This document shows, piece by piece, positions 51,838 through 62,690 of a stretch of 64,000 nt of DNA. How positions within the stretch are numbered: the first letter of the stretch is position 1; each line of letters begins with the position of its first letter. Source of the stretch: Acidobacteriota bacterium (GTDB lineage: Bacteria; Acidobacteriota; Vicinamibacteria; Vicinamibacterales; UBA2999); the NCBI GenBank assembly GCA_947482665.1, contig CANKJK010000007.1:124001-188000 (forward strand), read 5' to 3'. Below the pieces are notes generated by a model that was not told the DNA's origin, ran no database searches, and saw only the letters and a list, made by a program, of their open reading frames with translations. The position numbers were made by a program, and so were the translations under genes.

Positions 51838-54195
51838 ATGCCGGTGAAACCCCAGACGGAGCCGCCACCCCGACGGCCGCGATCGTTTGTCCGCTGGTTC
51901 TTGCTCGCGGGGCTCTTTCTTCTCACGGCGGCCCTCGGCCTGGCCACGGGCGCGCTGTACGCCTTCGCCGACGACCTCCCCGCCATCTCCGCCATCGACG
52001 ACTACCGGCCGGGTGCCATCACCCGGGTGCTGGCTGCGGACGGACAGGTGCTGGGCGACTTCGCCACCGAACGCCGCTATGCCATCGGGTACGACCAGGT
52101 GGCGCCGGCGCTGCGCAACGCCATCATTGCGACGGAGGACGCCGGCTTCGATCAACACGTCGGCCTGAGCGTGTCGCGCATCATCGTCACAGCCGCACGG
52201 GATGCGCTGAGCGGCAGCCGTGCCGGCGCCAGTACGCTCACCCAGCAGCTGGCGCGAGACCTGTTCCTGCGCGACTACCGGCGCAACGGCATCTTCGAGC
52301 GGTCCCTGGAGCGCAAGATCCGCGAAGTGCTCGTCGCCGTACAGCTCGAAAAGCGGTACACGAAGCGGGAAATCTTCACCCTCTACGCCAACCAGATCTA
52401 TTTCGGGCACGGCGCCTATGGCGTGGAGGCCGCCTCGCGCCTCTATTTCCGTAAGACCGCGAAGGACCTCGCCGTCGAAGAAGCTGCGCTCCTGGCCGCC
52501 ATCATCCAGTCGCCCGAGCGCCTGAGCCCCTATGTGAACCGGGCCCGCGCGCGCGAGCGCCGCAACTACGTGCTGCAGCGCATGGCGGAAGAGCACATGC
52601 TGCCCGTCGACGAGGCGGCACGCGCCTCCGCGCTGCCGGTCGTCACGCAGGGTCAGCCCGCCCAGGATCGCTCCGCCGCGCCCTATCTCGTGGAGGAAGT
52701 CCGCAAGGGACTTGAGGGGCAGTACGGCGCCGCGGCGATTTACGACGGCGGCCTCACCGTCCAGTCCACCATCGACGCCGGTCTGCAGGCGGTCGTCAAC
52801 CGGGCACTCGACCGTGGGTTGCGCGCACTCGACAAACGCCACTCCGCCTATCGAAAGCCCGCCCGCAATCTTGCCGCTGAGGGCCGGTCGCTGGAGAAGG
52901 TGAGCTTCGACCGCTGGGCGCTCCCCATCCACGAGGGCGACGTCGTGCCCGCCATCGTGATCGATGTCATCGAGGCGCGCGGCGCCAAGGCCGGAGCCCG
53001 CCTGCGCGTGGGGCCCACCGAGCTCTTCATGCCACCTGCCGCCTTTGCGTGGGCCCGGAAGTCCGCGGGTGACCTCTTCACACGCGGCGACGTGATCGAC
53101 GTCCGCGTCACCGCACTCACCGGCGGTGCCCCCTCGGCCGCCACCCTCGAACAGGCGCCCATCGTGGAGGGCGCGGTGCTGGCGATCGACAATCGAACGG
53201 GCCGCGTGCTGGCCATGGCGGGCGGCTTCAACTTCCTGCGCAGCCAGTTCAACCGGGCCATCCAGGCGCGCCGGCAGATGGGCTCGGCCTTCAAGCCGAT
53301 CGTGTACGCCACCGCCATCGATCACGGCGCGACCCCGCTCACGCAGTTCCTCGACCAACCGGTCTCCTACGAAGCCGGCCCCAACCAGCCTCCCTACGAG
53401 CCGCTGAACTACGACCGCAAGTTTGAGGGACCGGTCACGCTGCGCCGCGCACTCGAACAGTCGCGCAACATCCCGGCCGTGAAGGCGATGATCGACGCCG
53501 GGCCCGCGCACGTCGTCGAGTACGCGAAGCGTTTCGGCTTCTCGTTCGCCAACACGTCGCAGCCCTATCTCTCGCTCGCCCTGGGCGCCGCCGAGGCCAC
53601 GCTGGTGGAAGTGACCAGCGCCTACTCCGCCTTCCCGAACCAGGGCGTGCGCATGGCCCCGTACTTCGTGGCCGGCGTCCGCGACCGCGACGGAAACATC
53701 CTCGAAGAACACCACGCCTCTCCGCAGGAAGCCATCAGCGCCAGCACCGCGTACGTGATGACGAACCTGCTGCGCGGCGTCGTGCTCCGCGGCACCGCCG
53801 CATCAGCCGCGCCGCTCAACTGGCCGCTTGGGGGCAAGACCGGCACGATGGACGAATACACCGACGCGTGGTTCATCGGCTTCGACCCGAACATCACCAT
53901 CGGCGTGTGGATTGGACACGACGAGAAGAAGCCGCTCGGCCGGAACGAAACCGGCGCGCAGGCCGCGCTGCCCGTCTGGATCGAGGCCATGCGGTGGGTG
54001 ATCGCCAACCGGCGCGACCAGAGCCATCGGCCATCCTTCGAGATTCCGCCCGGTGTGGACCTCGCGCGGCTCCCCTCGGGTGAGGTGGAGGCCTTCCTCT
54101 CAGGCTCCGTGCCCGAGGGCCTGCCACTCGTCAGCGTGGAAGACGCCCTCGCCGCGCAAGCCGCCGAGCGCCCGTCTCCCCCACCCGCGCACTAG
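51838..54195 (+). CDS. Class A penicillin-binding protein (PBP1A family)
   Basis: 785 residues as ATG; 783 if GTG 51844 is used. Cytosolic Pro-rich tip, one membrane helix (about 19-41), glycosyltransferase domain with [13 protein letters not shown] (catalytic Glu) and [16 protein letters not shown]. The transpeptidase domain has [12 protein letters not shown] (SxxK serine), the [12 protein letters not shown] SxN motif and [10 protein letters not shown] (KTG). It builds and cross-links peptidoglycan. Divergent from dnaK across a 75-bp shared promoter region. Confidence 0.94.
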
Positions 54196-54230
54196 CGCGG
54201 CACCAGTAGGCTCACTCGCCTCGCGCCGCA

Positions 54231-54247
54231 CTCCGGCAGCCCCGGAG
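54231..54247. terminator. Hairpin in the convergent PBP / M1 peptidase gap
   Basis: CTCCGG-CAGCC-CCGGAG lies in the 87-bp gap between two convergent genes. It could end transcripts from both sides; no T-run is present. Confidence 0.3.
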
Positions 54248-54282
54248 ACATTCGGCCACTGGGGCGCCGCGGCGAACCGCCC

Positions 54283-55938
54283 TCAGTGCGTGTCGACGTT
54301 CACGTAGAAGAGATCCGTCGCCACCGCGAAGCTCTCCTTCGTCAGCGGCGTCTGCAGCGTTTGCCACGTAGTCCGCGGCTGCACGCGTTCCCACGCATCC
54401 TTCCGGCCCACCAGGACCGGCATGTCGAAGGCGGGCTCATCCGCCTTCCAGCGATAGCGCACCGCGCCAGGCGTATCGAAAGCCAGTTCCAGCGTCGGCA
54501 GCGCCGCGTGGCGCAGATACTGGTTGAAGATCGGCGTGAGGTCGCGCTGCGTCTCACGGTTGAAGTAGCCCACCACATCCTCCGTCAGGATGTTGCGATA
54601 GCGGAAGGTGGCGAAGTAGCCCCGCAGCAGGCGGAACCAGGCGTCGTCATCCCCCACCACGGACCGCAGCGTGTTCAGGAAGAGTGAGCCCTTGAAGTAC
54701 TGATCGTCCGTCGGCGGCGACTGGTGCACCCCGCGCGGCTGGAGGATGGGCTGCGTGTTCTTGACTTTGGCTTTGTAGCCATTCGTGTAGGCCAGCATGT
54801 CGGCCTTGCCCCAGCGGTGCTCCACGTAGAGGCTCTCGAGATAGGTGCCCCACGATTCGTGGAGCCACATATCGGCCACATCCGCGGCCGACACCGCATT
54901 GCCGAAGTATTCGTGCGCGCTCTCGTGGACGATGATGAAGTCGAAGCGCGGACTGATGCCCACGCCGGTGAAATCCCGCTGGCGGTAGCCGTTCGCAAAG
55001 CCATTCCCATAGGCCACCGCGCTCTGGTGCTCCATGCCCGCATAGGGCACCTGGATCAGCTTGTAGCCATCACGCGGGAATGGATACGGCCCGATGAAGC
55101 GCTCGAAGGCCGCCAGCATCTCCGGCACCTGCGCGAACTGCACCCGTGCCCGCGCCTGGTCTTCCGGCAGCGTGAAAAAGTCCAGCGGCAGATCCTTGTA
55201 GCGCTCCTGATACTGCACATAGCGCCCAATGTTCAGCGCCACGCCGTAGTTGTTGATCGGATAGTGCACCTTCCAGTTCCAGCGCGTGTAGCCACCGGGC
55301 AGGTCCTCCTTCCCCTCGAAGTGGCCGTTGGAAACCGCCACCAGCGGCGACGGCACCTCCACCGCAATCGACATCCACTCCACTTCGTCTTTCCACTGGT
55401 CCTTGTTGGGCCACCAGAGCGCCGCGCCTTCGTCTTCGCACGCCGTAAAGATCCACGGCGCGCCCGTCGGGTCCTTGTCGAAGACAAACCCGCCGAAGCG
55501 ACCCGTCTGCAGTGGTGCGCCTGAATAGGCCACGTCGATCGCGTAGACCCGCCCCTTCTTGAACGCGCGCTTCCCGCTCACCAGGATGCGGTTCTCGTCG
55601 CGCACATAGGTCAGCGGGCGCCCGTCCATCGTGATGGCGTCGATGGCCAGGTTTGCGTAGAGCTCAAGCTGAATGCGCGCGCCCTCGGCCAGCATGCGGA
55701 ACCGAATCCGGTTCGCGCCGCGGATGGTGCGCGCCACCGGGTCCACCCGGACGGTCAGTTCATAGGAGAGGAGATCGTTGTTCGCCCGCCCGGGACTATA
55801 GGCCCCGCGCAGCGCGCCGCTCCAGACCGGCGGCTTGTTGCCAGGGTCCGCCGGGCGCTGCTGGGCGAGGAGGAGGGAGGGGCTCAGGAGCGCGACGCAG
55901 AGGAGCGTCCACAACGCCCACGGGCAGGCACGGCGCAT
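54283..55938 (-). CDS. M1-family zinc metallopeptidase, secreted
   Basis: 551 residues. Signal peptide to about residue 25 (ending LLLAQ), aminopeptidase N-type N-domain, and catalytic IIVHESAHEYFGNAVSAAD with HExxH plus the downstream Glu ligand in MWLHESWGTYLES. The substrate-binding GAMEN motif is replaced by AGMEHQS. The protein lacks the long C-terminal helical domain of PepN, resembling the shorter leukotriene A4 hydrolase-like bacterial forms. Probably periplasmic peptide trimming. Confidence 0.88.
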   Translation of the reverse strand: MRRACPWALWTLLCVALLSPSLLLAQQRPADPGNKPPVWSGALRGAYSPGRANNDLLSYELTVRVDPVARTIRGANRIRFRMLAEGARIQLELYANLAIDAITMDGRPLTYVRDENRILVSGKRAFKKGRVYAIDVAYSGAPLQTGRFGGFVFDKDPTGAPWIFTACEDEGAALWWPNKDQWKDEVEWMSIAVEVPSPLVAVSNGHFEGKEDLPGGYTRWNWKVHYPINNYGVALNIGRYVQYQERYKDLPLDFFTLPEDQARARVQFAQVPEMLAAFERFIGPYPFPRDGYKLIQVPYAGMEHQSAVAYGNGFANGYRQRDFTGVGISPRFDFIIVHESAHEYFGNAVSAADVADMWLHESWGTYLESLYVEHRWGKADMLAYTNGYKAKVKNTQPILQPRGVHQSPPTDDQYFKGSLFLNTLRSVVGDDDAWFRLLRGYFATFRYRNILTEDVVGYFNRETQRDLTPIFNQYLRHAALPTLELAFDTPGAVRYRWKADEPAFDMPVLVGRKDAWERVQPRTTWQTLQTPLTKESFAVATDLFYVNVDTH

Positions 55939-55981
55939 CGACCGATGCTACCGCGACAGGTGGCCGGGCGACGCTGCGCGG

Positions 55982-56407
55982 CTACTTCCCCGCTTCAACG
56001 TGGGCGCGAAAGCGCTCGAGGATGGCCTGCCAACCCTGCCGCTGCATTTCCGCGGAGTTCACGTCCTCCGCATCAAACGCCTCAACCACCTTGATGCCGC
56101 CATCCGCCGGCTCAAAGGTGACCGACACCGTGCGCCCATCCCCGAGGACGTAGTCAATCCGCTTCCCGTGCTCGACGTGGGTGTAGGTGCCCCCGAAGTC
56201 GAACCCGAAGCTGCCGTCCCTGGCTTCCATGCGGTAGGAGAACGTGCCGCCCACGCGAAGGTCGTTCGTGCTTCTGGGGGTGTGCCAGTCGTCGCTGGCG
56301 GCATTCCACTGGTTGATGTCGTCCGGCGTGGTCCAGGCCGCCCAGACCCTATCGATGGTCGACTTAACGGTTGTCTCAATGACGATCTTCAGGATGCGTA
56401 TCTCCAA
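55982..56407 (-). CDS. SRPBCC/AHSA1-domain protein
   Basis: About 141 residues. The START-like fold shows KIVIETTVKSTIDRVWAAW near the N-terminus, GGTFSYRMEARDGSFGFDFG, and the C-terminal GWQAILERFRAHVEAG helix of Activator-of-Hsp90-homology 1-like proteins. Small-molecule binding is likely; role unknown. No ATG fits: TTG 56407 or CTG 56392 (GGAG 9 nt upstream of the latter) are the candidates. The gap to 56580 shows no gene. Confidence 0.75.
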   Translation of the reverse strand: MEIRILKIVIETTVKSTIDRVWAAWTTPDDINQWNAASDDWHTPRSTNDLRVGGTFSYRMEARDGSFGFDFGGTYTHVEHGKRIDYVLGDGRTVSVTFEPADGGIKVVEAFDAEDVNSAEMQRQGWQAILERFRAHVEAGK

Positions 56408-56579
56408 TGGCGTCCTCGTTCCAATGGGCGACTGGGAGCGCGGCGCAGAGGAGCGCCAGGCGGGCCGCCGCGAAACGACCAATGCTACCGCCACAGCCGT
56501 TCGCTCATCACGCGGTCCGACCCTGGCCTTGCCAGCCGTGTTTCGGGAGCCTCGCAGCCCTCCACACTGCGCGCCGAGA

Positions 56580-56972
56580 CTACTGCCTCAAGGAGCCGCC
56601 CTCCAGCACCAAGTAGGCCCAGCCTGCGATGACCATCGAGAGAAACAAAGCGGATACTGCGATGAACATGTAGAAGGGGCCGACGCTTATCGGTCGGCTA
56701 CCTGTGAGGGCCCCTAGTCGGGCGAAGTCACGGGCGAACCGCCGGGCGTGGGCAACTCCATAGAGCAATGGAACGACGACACTTAAACTAGAACCGAGTC
56801 CGGCGTAGGCGAAGATTCGCCCACCGTGTGGACTGTCCACGGCGAACTTCAGCAGGGCGCCTGCGATCGCGAGAAACAGCGCGATGCCCTTCAGATAACA
56901 GTCGAGGTAGAACTTGTAGAGGCCTACTTGAAGTTCCAGCTCCAGACGGGCTGGTGTCGGCGGTGTGTCCAT
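56580..56972 (-). CDS. Small membrane protein of the low-GC accessory segment
   Basis: 130 residues with about four hydrophobic helices (about 28-45, 50-70, 95-112, 113-125) and a short polar N-terminus. No known motif. It starts soon after a GTTAGGG box, as the first gene of an integron cassette would, although that site is poorly formed. I do not recognise the family. Membrane proteins of this size occur in cassettes and in defence loci, but nothing here proves a role. Confidence 0.65.
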   Translation of the reverse strand: MDTPPTPARLELELQVGLYKFYLDCYLKGIALFLAIAGALLKFAVDSPHGGRIFAYAGLGSSLSVVVPLLYGVAHARRFARDFARLGALTGSRPISVGPFYMFIAVSALFLSMVIAGWAYLVLEGGSLRQ

Positions 56973-57078
56973 CTACTGCCCCTTCTCGCAATCCATCCTG
57001 CGCGATCCCTGCGCCGCCCTAACGGTAGTGCTCGCCAGGGACAGCGCGTATCGCGCGACCCGCGGAAACCGGAGTGGC

Positions 57079-57966
57079 CTAAGACCCTCCTGAAGCCAGT
57101 TGCTGCTCTTCCCATGCCTTATACGTAAGGCCCTGCCCCTTCACCTTCCAATGGGCGCGACCGTTCAGGCCCGTACCGCTCACCACAGATGCGGCAGCCG
57201 AGGGCGAGTCGAAAGCGTAATCCTGTTCGAAACGAAGAAGCTGCACATTGCCTGCGACAGGCACGAGCACAGCGTTGTCCCGCAGCGCCTGGCGTGTCCG
57301 ACGGCCGGCGTCATTGAGGGACGGGACCTCGGTCACTCGTGCGGTTGAGCCCCGTTGCACAATGAAACTGCCGTCGCGGACCATGCACTCTGCCCGACAG
57401 CCCTCCCACCTCAGTTCCAGCACGAGATCGCCTGTCTTGGCTCCAGCACTCTTTGACGGTGCGGTCGACATGAACACGTCCGCGCCGAGCGTTGGTAGCA
57501 GCAGGCGCACGTGTTCGAGGAATGCCTCCATGTCTGCTACGTCTGCTTCTGGCAAGATGCCGCCGAACGGTTCGTTCAAGTTCTTGATCTCGACGCGCTT
57601 GGCGGCTGACACATCCCTTACGAGCGCTGCCTCAAGCCATCGGACATGGGCCTTGGTAAGGTTGTCGTCCTTCGAAATGAAGATCGCCACCCAGGTCCAA
57701 AAGTCCTTCGAGTCATCGTGGCTGCGGAGGCGAGCCCAGACGTCGTCACCTTCCCCCACGTAGATGGCCAGCCCGGACGCTGAGAGGTCGGACGGCCCCA
57801 GCAGAATGTAGACGCCCGTGCGGCGAACCTCTTTCCGTTGACTGAGTCGCGAGAGCTCGGTACGCGGCGACACAAGCGCGATGCCCGTCCAGTTACCGAC
57901 TTCAGCCGAACGCATTCCTTGAGGCACGCCGTCCACGAGAAAGATGCGTATAGACTTCCCGGCCAT
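57079..57966 (-). CDS. GIY-YIG nuclease family protein with DUF4357 C-terminal region
   Basis: 295 residues. An N-terminal preamble (1 to about 45) precedes a GIY-YIG-type core: RRTGVYILLG (GVY in place of GIY), LAIYVGEGDDVWARLRSH (YVG) and KAHVRWLEAALVRD, whose Glu is the likely metal ligand. The C-terminus (about 185-295) matches DUF4357, ending GLTYKAWEEQQLASGG. The catalytic Arg and Glu pattern seems intact. Its cellular target is unknown; such proteins turn up near restriction or defence genes. The preceding attC-like site lies 37 bp before its start. Confidence 0.78.
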   Translation of the reverse strand: MAGKSIRIFLVDGVPQGMRSAEVGNWTGIALVSPRTELSRLSQRKEVRRTGVYILLGPSDLSASGLAIYVGEGDDVWARLRSHDDSKDFWTWVAIFISKDDNLTKAHVRWLEAALVRDVSAAKRVEIKNLNEPFGGILPEADVADMEAFLEHVRLLLPTLGADVFMSTAPSKSAGAKTGDLVLELRWEGCRAECMVRDGSFIVQRGSTARVTEVPSLNDAGRRTRQALRDNAVLVPVAGNVQLLRFEQDYAFDSPSAAASVVSGTGLNGRAHWKVKGQGLTYKAWEEQQLASGGS

Positions 57967-58002
57967 CAGTCGATTCCTCTTGTTCTACGGGACGTGTCGT
58001 CC

Positions 58003-58072
58003 GCCCGACGTCGGGCATCAGCCGCGGCGCGCTCGATCGCGCTCGCGCCGTCGGCTGCATGCCGTGTTAGCC
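58003..58072 (-). other. attC-like integron recombination site
   Basis: Read on the minus strand: GGCTAAC (R'' box, 6/7), then arms GGCATGCAGCCGACGGCGCG and CGCGCCGCGGCTGATGCC. These pair fully except for two single extra bases (G and A), the extrahelical-base hallmark of attC, with a 12-nt loop at 58032-58043. A 3' GTCGGGC box (6/7 to GTTRRRY) follows. The stop TAA of the DUF4062 gene lies inside GCTAAC, as is common in cassettes. The 3' box is slightly degenerate, so recombination activity is uncertain. Confidence 0.75.
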
Positions 58073-59140
58073 TTCCGGCTCGCTTTCGGCATTGTGGTCA
58101 CCATCGCCCTTGTCTCTACCAATGGCGCGCAACCCCGTTAGGACTTGGTCACCATACGGAGTCAGCGTCCAATAAGTGTGCGTGTCCTTGATGCTTCTGG
58201 GTCTCTGACTTTTCGTGATCAGGCCTAGAGCCCGAAGTTGCACTTTGATAGTTTGAAAATCGTGGTCGCTAATTGAGAACTCGCGGAGCCTGGCGTGATC
58301 CTTTAGGCGCTTATCACCCCGGCGCGAGTTAGCGGAACGATGCTCGACGGTCGCATTCAGGGCTCGGCGAAGTTGGTAGTCGTCCGCCTCGTTGATCATG
58401 AGGGGACCCACGTCATAGAAGATCTCGTCCCAGCTGACATTGACGCTGCGAGTCCATTTCCACGACACCGCCTCCGCGTCAGTTGATGAGAACGTGAAGT
58501 CGAGAGAGAACTCATCATCCCCCTGAGCTAGCCTCTCACTTCCAGCCGGGGCCGACGAGCGAGCCTCCTCGAGTCGGCTCTCAAGTTCTTCGATCCGTTT
58601 ACGCAGCCGAAGCACTTCTGGCGCTGCGAGGGACTCTGTCGCATCGTCGGCCCTGATCCAGCCCACTGCGGGTGCTGTCTTTGTGAGACGCACGAGGCTC
58701 CTGCTCACCACCGAACCGAGCTCGGCTGGTGTTTCCCAGTACTTGCACATCTTCTGTTGAAGCAACTCGCGAAAGGCCGAGAGCTTCTCCCTGCCGGCAT
58801 CCGTCTGCTCGACTGCCCCCGCCTGTAGCTTGAGGGGATCCTTGTGGAGGAACGCGATCACTGGTTTCGCAGCTTCGGTGGCGTACCGATACTCCATCTC
58901 GGTATAACTCTGCCCGTTTGGCCCGAGCGAACCGTAGCGCCCAGCTGAGACAACGATGTAGTAGTCGCATTCGTCAATCACCTTCTTGATCAACGACCAC
59001 TGGTCCTCATTGGCCGCAGGAAACAGTTCCATGCCGGCCGGCATGCAGTCGAGTTCTAGTAGGGCGTGCATGATTTCTTGACGCTCGACTCGGAGGTCCT
59101 CGTACGTTGAACTGACGAAGACTTGATATCGCTTTTCCAT
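58067..59140 (-). CDS. DUF4062-domain protein with C-terminal winged-helix-like region
   Basis: 357 residues. N-terminal DUF4062: YQVFVSSTYEDLRVERQEI, DECDYYIVVSAGRYGSLG and SYTEMEYRYATEA (about 4-95). A coiled coil follows (LRKRIEELESRLEEAR, about 180-200). The C-terminal third, with FQTIKVQLRALGLITKSQ and TYWTLTPYGDQVLTGL, looks like a winged-helix reader. The DUF4062 block is reminiscent of TIR-like Rossmannoid domains used in bacterial immunity; that fold link is inference. ATG 59140 has no ribosome site. An attC-like site overlaps its stop, so it is a likely integron cassette. Confidence 0.78.
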   Translation of the reverse strand: MEKRYQVFVSSTYEDLRVERQEIMHALLELDCMPAGMELFPAANEDQWSLIKKVIDECDYYIVVSAGRYGSLGPNGQSYTEMEYRYATEAAKPVIAFLHKDPLKLQAGAVEQTDAGREKLSAFRELLQQKMCKYWETPAELGSVVSRSLVRLTKTAPAVGWIRADDATESLAAPEVLRLRKRIEELESRLEEARSSAPAGSERLAQGDDEFSLDFTFSSTDAEAVSWKWTRSVNVSWDEIFYDVGPLMINEADDYQLRRALNATVEHRSANSRRGDKRLKDHARLREFSISDHDFQTIKVQLRALGLITKSQRPRSIKDTHTYWTLTPYGDQVLTGLRAIGRDKGDGDHNAESEPEG

Positions 59141-59177
59141 CAACAGGCTTTTCCTGAAGGCTAACGTTGTTTATCTG

Positions 59178-59254
59178 GAATGCGCCAATCCCCGGTTCTG
59201 AGCGCCTTCTGGCCCGCAGCGCCCATCCACCCCGCCCACCATTCCGGCGCATTC
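59178..59254. repeat. Inverted repeat with internal direct repeat in the 59141-59411 gap
   Basis: GAATGCGCC (59178-59186) and GGCGCATTC (59246-59254) form a 9-bp perfect inverted repeat. AGCGCCTTCTG occurs twice, at 59201-59211 and 59279-59289. Minus-strand GTTAGCC (59159-59165) and GTTAGGC (59307-59313) boxes flank. Could be another attC-like structure; the 5' box is not recognisable. No gene is seen in this 271-bp gap. Confidence 0.45.
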
Positions 59255-59411
59255 TGCCCCCTGCCAAACGAAAGGACAAGCGCCTTCTGCGGTATTGCCC
59301 CATGCGGCCTAACCCCACAATCCGCGGTTTAGACCGCACGCAGGCTTTCACTCCCCCGTCACACCCCGTGCGCTAAAATCACGGCCTCGACTTCCCTTTC
59401 AGGAGACACAC

Positions 59412-60050
59412 ATGACCCGACGACTCGCGATCGCCCTTCTGGCGGCACTCTGCATCACGCCGCTGGCCGCCCAGGGCACCAAGGGCTGGAAGCTGCGCGT
59501 GGACAAGAGCACCAGCGCTTCAGACCCGGATGGTTCCGGCGCCATTCAGTTCATGGCGATGGGCGGCGGCTTCCACGCCGTGAATCCGCAGGCGGCGGTC
59601 TACTGGAACCCGGCCAACACGGCCTCGGGCACCTACACGCTCAAGGGCAGCTTCAAGCTGCTGAAGCCCTCGGGCCACACCAACTACTACGGGCTGGTGT
59701 TCGGCGGCGCGGAACTCGAAGGCGCCAAGCAGGCCTACACCTACTTCCTCGTGGCGCAGGACGGCACGTGGCTGATCAAGACGCGCAATGGGGACGAAGT
59801 GGTCCGCGGCTCGAACCCGGCGGACGTGGCGCCGAAGACGATGAATGAGGCAGTGGCCAAGCCCGGTGCGGATGGCTCCTCGGTGAACAAGCTCGAGGTC
59901 CGTGTGGGCGCCGACAAGGTGGACTACGTGGTCAACGGCACGGTGGTGCACTCGACGCCGAAGAGCGCGGTCCGCACGGACGGCGTGTACGGCTTCCGCA
60001 TCAACCACCTGCTCGAAGTGATGGTCGAAGACGTAGCGGTTTCGAAGTAA
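59412..60050 (+). CDS. Secreted protein with lectin/glucanase-like beta-sandwich features
   Basis: 212 residues: signal peptide cleaved near LAAQG (residue 21). The rest is rich in beta-strands, with GTYTLKGSFKLLKPSGHTN, YYGLVFGGAELEG, NKLEVRVGADKVDYVVNG and a terminal VMVEDVAVSK. This pattern is typical of concanavalin-like/DUF1080-type folds, but catalytic residues cannot be placed. AGGAG is 6 nt before ATG 59412. Role unknown; isolated on the plus strand next to the accessory segment. Confidence 0.7.
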   Translation: MTRRLAIALLAALCITPLAAQGTKGWKLRVDKSTSASDPDGSGAIQFMAMGGGFHAVNPQAAVYWNPANTASGTYTLKGSFKLLKPSGHTNYYGLVFGGAELEGAKQAYTYFLVAQDGTWLIKTRNGDEVVRGSNPADVAPKTMNEAVAKPGADGSSVNKLEVRVGADKVDYVVNGTVVHSTPKSAVRTDGVYGFRINHLLEVMVEDVAVSK

Positions 60051-61294: not shown

Positions 61295-62005
61295 CTACTT
61301 CTTCACCGTGGAGGGCAGGTGCGGCGGCAGCATCTGGCCGGGCACGGCGTTAGGCGCCCCGCTGGCGTCGCGCGTCAGGCCCTTCTTGAGCATGTCCTGA
61401 ATCACCTCTTCCTGGTTGGTCTTCCAGGTGGCGGGGTTGGCGAGCACGGGCGAGGGCGCAATCTTCTGGTAGGAGCCGACGTGCTCGTCCGTGGTCCAGA
61501 TGCGCTCCTTCATGCGCCAGCCCTCGGGCGTCTTCACGTAGACGTCCTCGTACTTGCCCATCAGGTCGATGGTGGGCTTGCCGCCCGGCTCCTTCACCGA
61601 GATGCCCATCATCATGGACGACCCACGCGCGGTGCCGTCGGGCAGGCCGATGATCACGGGCGACGTGTTGAAGTGGCGGTTGCCACCCTTCGTGGCCTGG
61701 CCGTCTGGCGCGACGAGCGCGCCGTAGAAGTTCTCGAAGTCCTCGGGCTTGAGCATGGGGTGGCCGGCAATCACGGACCGCGCCCCCGGCATGAACATCC
61801 ACGAGGCATTGCGCACGGAGCCCGGGTCCACGTCGCGTGGATACTCGGACTGGAGCTGCAGGATCTCGATGTAATCCTCGGGCGCCAGGTTCACGTGCGT
61901 GCCCTTCATGATCTGGGGCTTCGCGTCGAGCACGTGCGTCGCATAGGAGGAGATGGTCGCCACGAGGGCGCCGGCAAAGAAGTAGGCGAACTTGGATGGC
62001 GTCAT
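61295..62005 (-). CDS. SnoaL-like (NTF2 fold) exported protein, tandem copy 1
   Basis: 236 residues with one N-terminal hydrophobic helix (about 6-22, probable membrane anchor or signal). The NTF2-like domain begins at PEDYIEILQLQSEYPRDVD and runs through HVGSYQKIAPSPVLANP. It is nearly identical in layout to the following gene, with a Pro-rich C-terminal extension of about 12 residues. SnoaL-like proteins include hydroxynitrile or polyketide cyclases and structural dimers; no active-site claim is made. GGGAG is 4 nt before ATG 62005. Confidence 0.75.
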   Translation of the reverse strand: MTPSKFAYFFAGALVATISSYATHVLDAKPQIMKGTHVNLAPEDYIEILQLQSEYPRDVDPGSVRNASWMFMPGARSVIAGHPMLKPEDFENFYGALVAPDGQATKGGNRHFNTSPVIIGLPDGTARGSSMMMGISVKEPGGKPTIDLMGKYEDVYVKTPEGWRMKERIWTTDEHVGSYQKIAPSPVLANPATWKTNQEEVIQDMLKKGLTRDASGAPNAVPGQMLPPHLPSTVKK

Positions 62006-62015
62006 GGCTCTCCCG

Positions 62016-62690
62016 TCAGCGTCCGGCCGGCACGGGCGCCGGCACGCCCTGGGAATCGCGCGTCAGGCCCTTCTTGAGCAGGTCCTGAATCACTTCCTCC
62101 TGGTTGGTCTTCCACGTGGCGGGGTTTGCGAGCACGGGCGAAGGCGCCACCTTCTGATAGGAGCCGACGTGCTGGTCGGCAGTCCAGATGCGCTCCTTCA
62201 TCCGCCAGCCGTCCGGCGTCCGCACGTACACATCTTCATACTTCCCCATCAGGTCGATGGTGGGCTTGCCGCCGGGCTCCTTCACGGAGACGCCCATCAT
62301 CAGCGACGACCCGCGCGCGGTGCCGTCGGGCAACCCGATGATCACGGGCGACATGTTGAAGTGGCGATTCCCACCCTTGCTGGCCTGCCCTTCGGCCGCC
62401 ACGAGCCCCCCGTAGAAGTTCTCGAAGTCGGCGGGCTTGAGCATCGGGTGACCGGAGATCACGGACCGGGCGTCCTTCGTGAACATCCAGCCCGCGTTGC
62501 GGACGGAGCCTGGGTCCACGTCGCGCGGATACTCGGTCTGCAGCTGCAGAATCTCGAGGTAATCCGCGGGCGAGAGATTCACGTGGGTGCCCTTCGGGAT
62601 GGCCGGCTTCGCGCCCAACTGGTGGGTCGTGTAGCTGACGATCATCGCGACGAGGGCACCGGCAAAGAAGTGGGCGAACTTTGAAGACAT
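62016..62690 (-). CDS. SnoaL-like (NTF2 fold) exported protein, tandem copy 2
   Basis: 224 residues, clearly homologous to copy 1 over the whole length: KGTHVNLSPADYLEILQLQ, GNRHFNMSPVIIGLPDGTAR, DLMGKYEDVYVRTPDGWRM and EEVIQDLLKKGLTRD match almost residue for residue. The hydrophobic N-terminal anchor is retained. The 10-bp gap to copy 1 implies co-expression and a recent duplication. Same caution on function. Confidence 0.75.
   Translation of the reverse strand: MSSKFAHFFAGALVAMIVSYTTHQLGAKPAIPKGTHVNLSPADYLEILQLQTEYPRDVDPGSVRNAGWMFTKDARSVISGHPMLKPADFENFYGGLVAAEGQASKGGNRHFNMSPVIIGLPDGTARGSSLMMGVSVKEPGGKPTIDLMGKYEDVYVRTPDGWRMKERIWTADQHVGSYQKVAPSPVLANPATWKTNQEEVIQDLLKKGLTRDSQGVPAPVPAGR

Follow-up and report, generated by a model that had tools for sequence, protein, structure and literature searches.

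A lone attC site at the end of a predicted Swarozyc-type gene cassette in an acidobacterial genome with an integron integrase remnant

In a 64,000-nucleotide stretch of a contig from an Acidobacteriota bacterium (order Vicinamibacterales), which we call the window, the 3' end of a gene for a DUF4062 protein runs into a hairpin that resembles the attC recombination site of integrons. This raises the question of whether the hairpin is an attC site and, if it is, how a gene cassette came to lie in a chromosomal region where no integrase is in view.

The site occupies 58003-58072, and its top strand is the minus strand, as indicated by a covariance model (R1, see below), a heuristic scan and folding. 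Read in this direction, it consists of an R'' box GGCTAAC (58072-58066, one mismatch against the consensus RYYYAAC), a left arm (58063-58045) containing the extrahelical bases G58058 and A58051, a 14-nt loop (58044-58031), a right arm (58030-58014) and an R' box GTCGGGC (58009-58003, one mismatch against the consensus GTTRRRY). The arms pair at 17 of 17 positions when both extrahelical bases, which lie on the gene-side arm, are omitted, and the stop codon TAA of the DUF4062 gene (58069-58067) is located inside R''. The sequence-only reading had described the site in the same way: its coordinates were exact, and the arms perfect save for two single extrahelical bases, the R boxes at 6/7 each and the TAA within R'' were all recovered. 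The two-base extrahelical pattern is common to this site and the attC sites of relatives, among which the R'' GGCTAAC (6/7) also occurs, and R', with GTC for GTT, is one transition away from GTTGGGC. In an unconstrained fold the inner part of the stem was recovered (z = -3.25, equalled by 1 of 200 shuffles). In addition, when the 64-kb window was scanned heuristically for R''/R' boxes with pairing arms, this place ranked top with a score of 14, and the next place scored 10.

The covariance model was built from integron integrase (IntI) loci of relatives. The integron integrase family TIGR02249 was found over its cut-off in 45 of 149 genomes of the order vs none of 14 control genomes, and 20 IntI stretches from the order were taken as the source, in which many attC-like sites were collected heuristically and 32 were aligned. 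Model R1 (alignment A2) contains 18 attC sites from relatives' IntI loci and none from the window's genome. The 14 sites left out of R1 were 13 rows that MAFFT had shifted by one column in R'', together with L054:12744, a near-copy of an R1 member; L053:6348, seven L054 near-copies and one chance-looking L051 pair had been dropped prior to modelling. The attC structure is supported by covariation in A2, in which 93.0% of cells were paired vs 31-38% when slid, and the covariation score was 0.448 vs a shuffled mean of 0.118. R1 recovered all 14 left-out sites at 38.4-74.6 bits, where the top score is that of the near-copy L054:12744 and the remaining sites reach 61.4 bits. Note that no R1 attC was found in 5 of the 20 relatives' IntI stretches. 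Among the other 15 (within loci L048-L066), the array lies 3' of IntI and in the same direction in 11, and the divergent layout is seen in 4.

When the 64-kb window was searched with R1 with filters off, 58003-58072 on the minus strand scored 48.8 bits (E 5e-9), so that the attC-type reading also passed a covariance check with a model made from relatives' IntI loci, and the runner-up place in the window scored 17.8 bits (E 0.074). The plus strand at the same place scored 12.1 bits, indicating that the attC strand is defined and matches the direction of the DUF4062 gene. The site is thus a genuine attC by sequence, structure, strand and position.

A cassette starts with the bases that remain from the cut in R', and these are expected to pair with the cassette's own R''. 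When this rule was checked on 26 attC sites from arrays at four loci, an exact complement of R'' was present at most 2.5 kb away on the 5' side in 21, and on the 3' side in 6 by the same search. In the window, GTTAGCC at 59165-59159 (minus strand) is the exact complement (7/7) of the R'' GGCTAAC; it is a single copy on the window's minus strand and lies 15 nt ahead of the listed DUF4062 ORF, and the cut is expected between G59165 and T59164. This boundary and the attC site together make 59164-58009, a stretch of 1156 bp on the minus strand from T59164 to G58009, a complete gene cassette, and the view of the hairpin as the end of an integron cassette is supported with both cassette ends present.

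The cassette gene (58067-59143, minus strand) has a listed start TTG at 59143 and a likelier start ATG at 59140-59138. Its protein matches DUF4062 (PF13271, E 7.3e-28) and the structure of the anti-phage NADase KpSwz (10wc_A) with E 2.2e-54 over residues 2-338, and Glu82 of the listed ORF aligns gap-free with residue 82 of the 10wc_A chain. Given a chain start at residue 16, to which a construct name in the preprint points, Glu82 would be the counterpart of the catalytic E97 of KpSwz. Of 162 genomes of the order, three, this one among them, have a DUF4062 homologue at E <= 1e-15, and the catalytic Glu is kept in both further homologues. With the DUF4062 domain, the catalytic Glu and a KpSwz-like C-terminal part, the protein is, as judged from its sequence, a full-length homologue of KpSwz (Swarozyc), and it would presumably act against phages as well. 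In viral contigs, the best match of a search for DUF4062 homologues was 17.5 bits; plasmid homologues of this protein and of the neighbouring DUF4357 protein (see below) were all less than 60% identical.

We compared the chromosomal setting with that of relatives. The PBP gene of the window (51838-54195) tends to adjoin prfB in relatives. A PBP match was present in 39 relatives, and 29 loci were compared with flanks of at most 1.5 kb, some of which were ended by contig ends; prfB lay inside the PBP flank in 18 of the 29. The order PBP, homologue of the gene at 59412, prfB was seen in some of them (loci L190 and L192; genomes G151 and G036). Neither the M1 peptidase and AHSA1 genes nor the DUF4357 and DUF4062 genes of the window were present in the PBP flanks of the 29 loci, indicating that 54196-59411 is 5.2 kb of extra DNA relative to the family order. 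The M1 peptidase and AHSA1 genes lie within it at 54283-56410; since they do not look like cassettes, the junction must have taken more than one insertion. Among the relatives of the M1 peptidase, 73 of 80 named loci have titles that we read as Acidobacteria, so that the acidobacterial chromosome proposed by the sequence-only reading is plausible; as this gene lies in the inserted stretch, however, it is a weak witness of kinship. The spacers of G036 and G151 were compared by eye for an empty site, and nothing alignable was found in them. Outside the extra DNA, a cross-match gave 84% over 69 aa for two adjoining ORFs of 236 and 224 aa at 61295-62690, which resemble tandem paralogues.

The assembly (3.53 Mb, 38 contigs, 97.46% complete) contains further integron parts. 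With R1 at E <= 0.0065, 11 attC sites were found in the genome, seven on contig C2, three on contig C11 and one in the window, and two weaker sites (31.4 and 25.0 bits) appeared when the C11 stretch was searched alone. The window indeed shows no integrase, as the sequence-only reading remarked. No locus in the whole assembly reaches the TIGR02249 cut-off, and a look for IntI elsewhere gave a C-terminal remnant on C11, beside further attC sites. Specifically, the remnant (L007, G000:C11:137175-140396, 1504-1722) covers TIGR02249 positions 242-315 at 125.2 bits and shares 81% identity over 62 aa with the IntI of relative G113. It starts a few bases past the stop codon of another ORF, indicating that the first 241 IntI positions are gone. 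The next-best IntI-like locus (83.2 bits) is of a kind also seen below the cut-off in control genomes. Note that the assembly is incomplete, and an intact IntI could therefore be absent from it.

An attI-like sequence, GCGGTCTACT....AGTAGTT, was found with 0 mismatches on C11 and 1 on C2, and this motif also precedes the first cassette of G113; a third match has 3 mismatches, a level at which a reversed-pattern control also gives 2 matches. On C11, the IntI remnant is followed by the attI-like sequence and then by an array with toxin-antitoxin-type cassettes, which carry ParE- and Gp49-type genes with antitoxin-type partners. C2 (L235, G000:C2:270000-287000) has seven attC sites and the attI-like sequence without any IntI match, and its cassettes encode an Mrr-type endonuclease and a HepT/nucleotidyltransferase pair, besides a DUF2971 protein and a weak SieB-like protein (below cut-off). 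The endonuclease and HepT/nucleotidyltransferase genes of C2 and the toxin-antitoxin-type genes of C11 are of defence type, like the cargo of the window cassette. The window cassette is a third, isolated integron place of this genome. One attC site without an integrase is called a SALIN (PMC12690207), and a cluster of at least two attC sites is a CALIN (IntegronFinder 2 default). As neither attI nor IntI lies nearby, the cassette is a SALIN; the window, with one attC, holds no CALIN, and the attC groups on C2 and C11 are CALINs. The locus is not a complete integron either, as no IntI over the cut-off was found in the genome and no attI-like copy near the window in the genome scan.

One place near the cassette was considered as an attI and rejected. 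At 59304-59337, where the DUF4062 and 59412 genes diverge, an R'-like GTTAGGC (59313-59307) and an attI-like GCGGTCTA (59337-59330) fall in the two arms, of about 12 bp, of one predicted hairpin and were not taken for an attI. The whole stretch is no more stable than its shuffles (z -0.32). The word TTAGGCYGC was seen once in the window vs 0.63 expected and GCGGTCTA four times vs 1.24 expected (a count attained by 2 of 100 shuffles), indicating that neither word marks this spot. TTAGGCYGC words are also found on either side of the attI regions of C2 and C11.

Taken together, we consider it very probable (roughly 0.93) that attC 58003-58072 closes a Swarozyc-type cassette (59164-58009) that was inserted at the junction of PBP and the 59412 gene/prfB, and that the integrases of the genome have since decayed. 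An integron integrase would have joined the circular cassette, through its folded bottom strand, to a non-attI target in the intergenic region at that junction; alternatively, the DUF4062 cassette may have arrived together with a neighbouring cassette that still abuts it. Decay of the genome's integrases would have followed, with the C-terminal fragment on another contig as the only piece found, and on this ground the cassette is probably fixed now. In addition, its R' is GTCGGGC and not GTTRRRY, so that present-day activity would be doubtful even given an integrase.

The neighbour in question is the DUF4357 gene at 57079-57966 (minus strand; DUF4357 47.6 bits). Its protein matches PADLOC PDC-S14 at 1e-103 (residues 1-291, profile positions 21-315 of 320), an assignment that makes it a member of a candidate defence family only; by eye it is GIY-YIG-like, and homologues in plasmid records carry that name. 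We consider it likely that this gene is a second cassette, with TCGGGC at 58003-58008 (minus strand) as its probable 5' end, mutated from TTGGGC. The competing account, which we find rather unlikely, is that the DUF4062 cassette stands alone and the PDC-S14 gene came by another route. After insertion at a non-attI place, the bases past the G belong to the target, and TCGGGC could thus be target DNA. It also fits the cassette standing alone that there is no significant attC behind the PDC-S14 gene: 57000-57056 (minus strand), a possible decayed attC with GTTAGGG at 57023-57017 that is suggestive only, scores 7.0 bits (E 1.9), and a decayed attC was not among the best 14 of 182 right-half and 77 left-half matches to half-site profiles.

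Relatives speak on both sides of this question. A DUF4357 homologue at E <= 1e-15 is present in just three of 162 genomes searched in the order, counting the window's own, which argues against another route. In relative G142, a homologue of the C-terminal 71 residues (72%) stops 20 nt short of a 45.4-bit attC, which lies between two more (49.0 and 28.2 bits), and from the R'' of this attC, GCCCAAC, a cassette beginning with GTTGGGC would be expected, which differs by a single base from the GTCGGGC of the window; both points argue for a cassette origin. On the window's minus strand, 128 of 22,306 G's precede TTGGGC or a sequence one mismatch away from it. However, the G142 homologue is a 5'-truncated piece (a 67-aa ORF), so that G142 shows the 3' end of a cassette, and the present G142 cassette does not start with GTTGGGC; near the other homologue of the order, in G138, no attC scores above 12.6 bits. 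The R' of the G142 attC (L242:1409-1477) is off the GTT consensus too, reading GTCTAGC or TCTAGCC depending on the cut position.

A second alternative concerns the DUF4062 cassette itself, which might be what is left of a local array whose attI, IntI and further cassettes were deleted, leaving one or two cassettes behind. The neighbour gene that looks like a second cassette and the integron decay elsewhere (the C2 array without IntI and the IntI remnant on C11) are compatible with such a history. We nevertheless regard it as improbable, because the attI-like copies are confined to C11 and C2 apart from the control-level third match, because nothing in 54190-59420 exceeds 9 bits with R1 except the other strand of attC 58003-58072, and because PBP and prfB are close together in so many of the relatives' loci. 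Finally, it is extremely improbable that the site is an ordinary intergenic hairpin, a terminator or repeat that resembles an attC by chance, since, although it follows a stop codon in a window of 66% GC where hairpins are frequent, it stands far above the runner-up, is strand-asymmetric, has extrahelical bases at the right arm positions and a matching 5' cassette end, no Rfam family matches at gathering score anywhere in the 64-kb window, and 5 of 43 family genomes lack an R1 match at 1e-3, meaning that such scores are not ubiquitous.

Isolated attC sites are frequent in the family. R1 was built from one order and its attC counts are valid for that group only; within it, 38 of the 43 family genomes, counting the window's own, have an attC at E <= 1e-3. 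The 103 matches in 11 chosen genomes formed 55 clusters (same strand, gaps of at most 4 kb), 10 of which lay within 6 kb of an IntI, 14 had at least two sites without IntI and 31 were singles. The singles were more than 5 kb from the contig start in 24 cases of 31; L251 and L253 are within 200 bp of a contig end, and some singles may therefore be cut arrays. Outside the own genome there were 30 singles, of which a sample of 20 (L246-L265) was analysed. An exact 5' complement at most 2.5 kb away was found for 8 of these 20 (9 of 21 with the window) vs 1 of 21 on the 3' side, and by the rule above several of them carry a complete cassette. R', as the model cuts it, did not start with GTT in 10 of the 20 singles vs 3 of 26 array sites, as expected where target DNA follows the cut, a pattern that weak matches with misplaced ends would mimic. 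A further apparently broken integron integrase was seen in a Blastocatellia bacterium MAG (L124, G164:C6:448-1711), where IntI is in two pieces (positions 1-156 and 151-314) with 192.9 and 236.9 bits.

We tentatively suggest, with the odds slightly against it, that single cassettes are routinely inserted outside integrons in this family and that defence genes such as the Swarozyc-type NADase and PDC-S14 became fixed after integrase loss. If this is true, integrons would be feeders of dispersed immune genes. An integron-rich family with many lone attC sites is well suited to tests of the frequency with which integrases place cassettes in chromosomes. In addition, the window cassette would link integron cassettes with a newly described family of defence NADases, and this link would account for some of that family's patchy distribution.

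An attC model for Acidobacteria has already been published (PMC8352920), and integrons in that phylum are hence not new. In the literature on integrons in Vicinamibacter and on attC in Acidobacteriota, titles and abstract starts gave nothing on stranded cassettes. Among full-text literature on DUF4062, the Swarozyc preprint (PMC13174449) was, by titles and abstract starts, the sole item on bacterial anti-phage defence, and the word 'integron' is absent from its main text. No description of the cargo and setting of the window cassette was found in the literature searched. The kind of object is already known, and its cargo and the apparent frequency of isolated cassettes in the family look new.

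One close known object is the SALIN, with which the locus shares one attC, a cassette gene ahead of it and neither integrase nor attI nearby. It differs in that both cassette ends are identified, the IntI of the genome is a remnant and there is probably a second cassette behind it, with no recognisable attC of its own. In the chromosomal integrons of Treponema, for which attC without intI has been reported in T. phagedenis (PMC3607928), integrase and cassettes are described as running in the same direction, as in the C11 remnant and most of the relatives' loci; however, the group is a different one, and the remaining loci here show the usual divergent layout. Insertion at a non-attI chromosomal place and an R' off consensus resemble the integration of cassettes at attG sites (Loot et al. 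2024), whereas insertion is deduced here from anatomy alone, with no empty site recognised. Swarozyc proteins (KpSwz; PDB 10wc, 11cq, 11cv) are described in the preprint as depleting NAD+ when triggered by the phage portal and as spread by horizontal transfer (PMC13174449); the window protein shares homology with KpSwz along nearly its whole length and the aligned catalytic Glu, and differs in that its gene sits on an integron cassette. Lastly, integrons have been described as libraries of anti-phage defence (Darracq 2025; Getz 2025; Kieffer 2025), and the window cassette is similar in carrying a putative defence gene; to judge by their titles, those reports concern sedentary, Vibrio and mobile integrons, whereas the cassette here belongs to another group and is stranded outside an integron.
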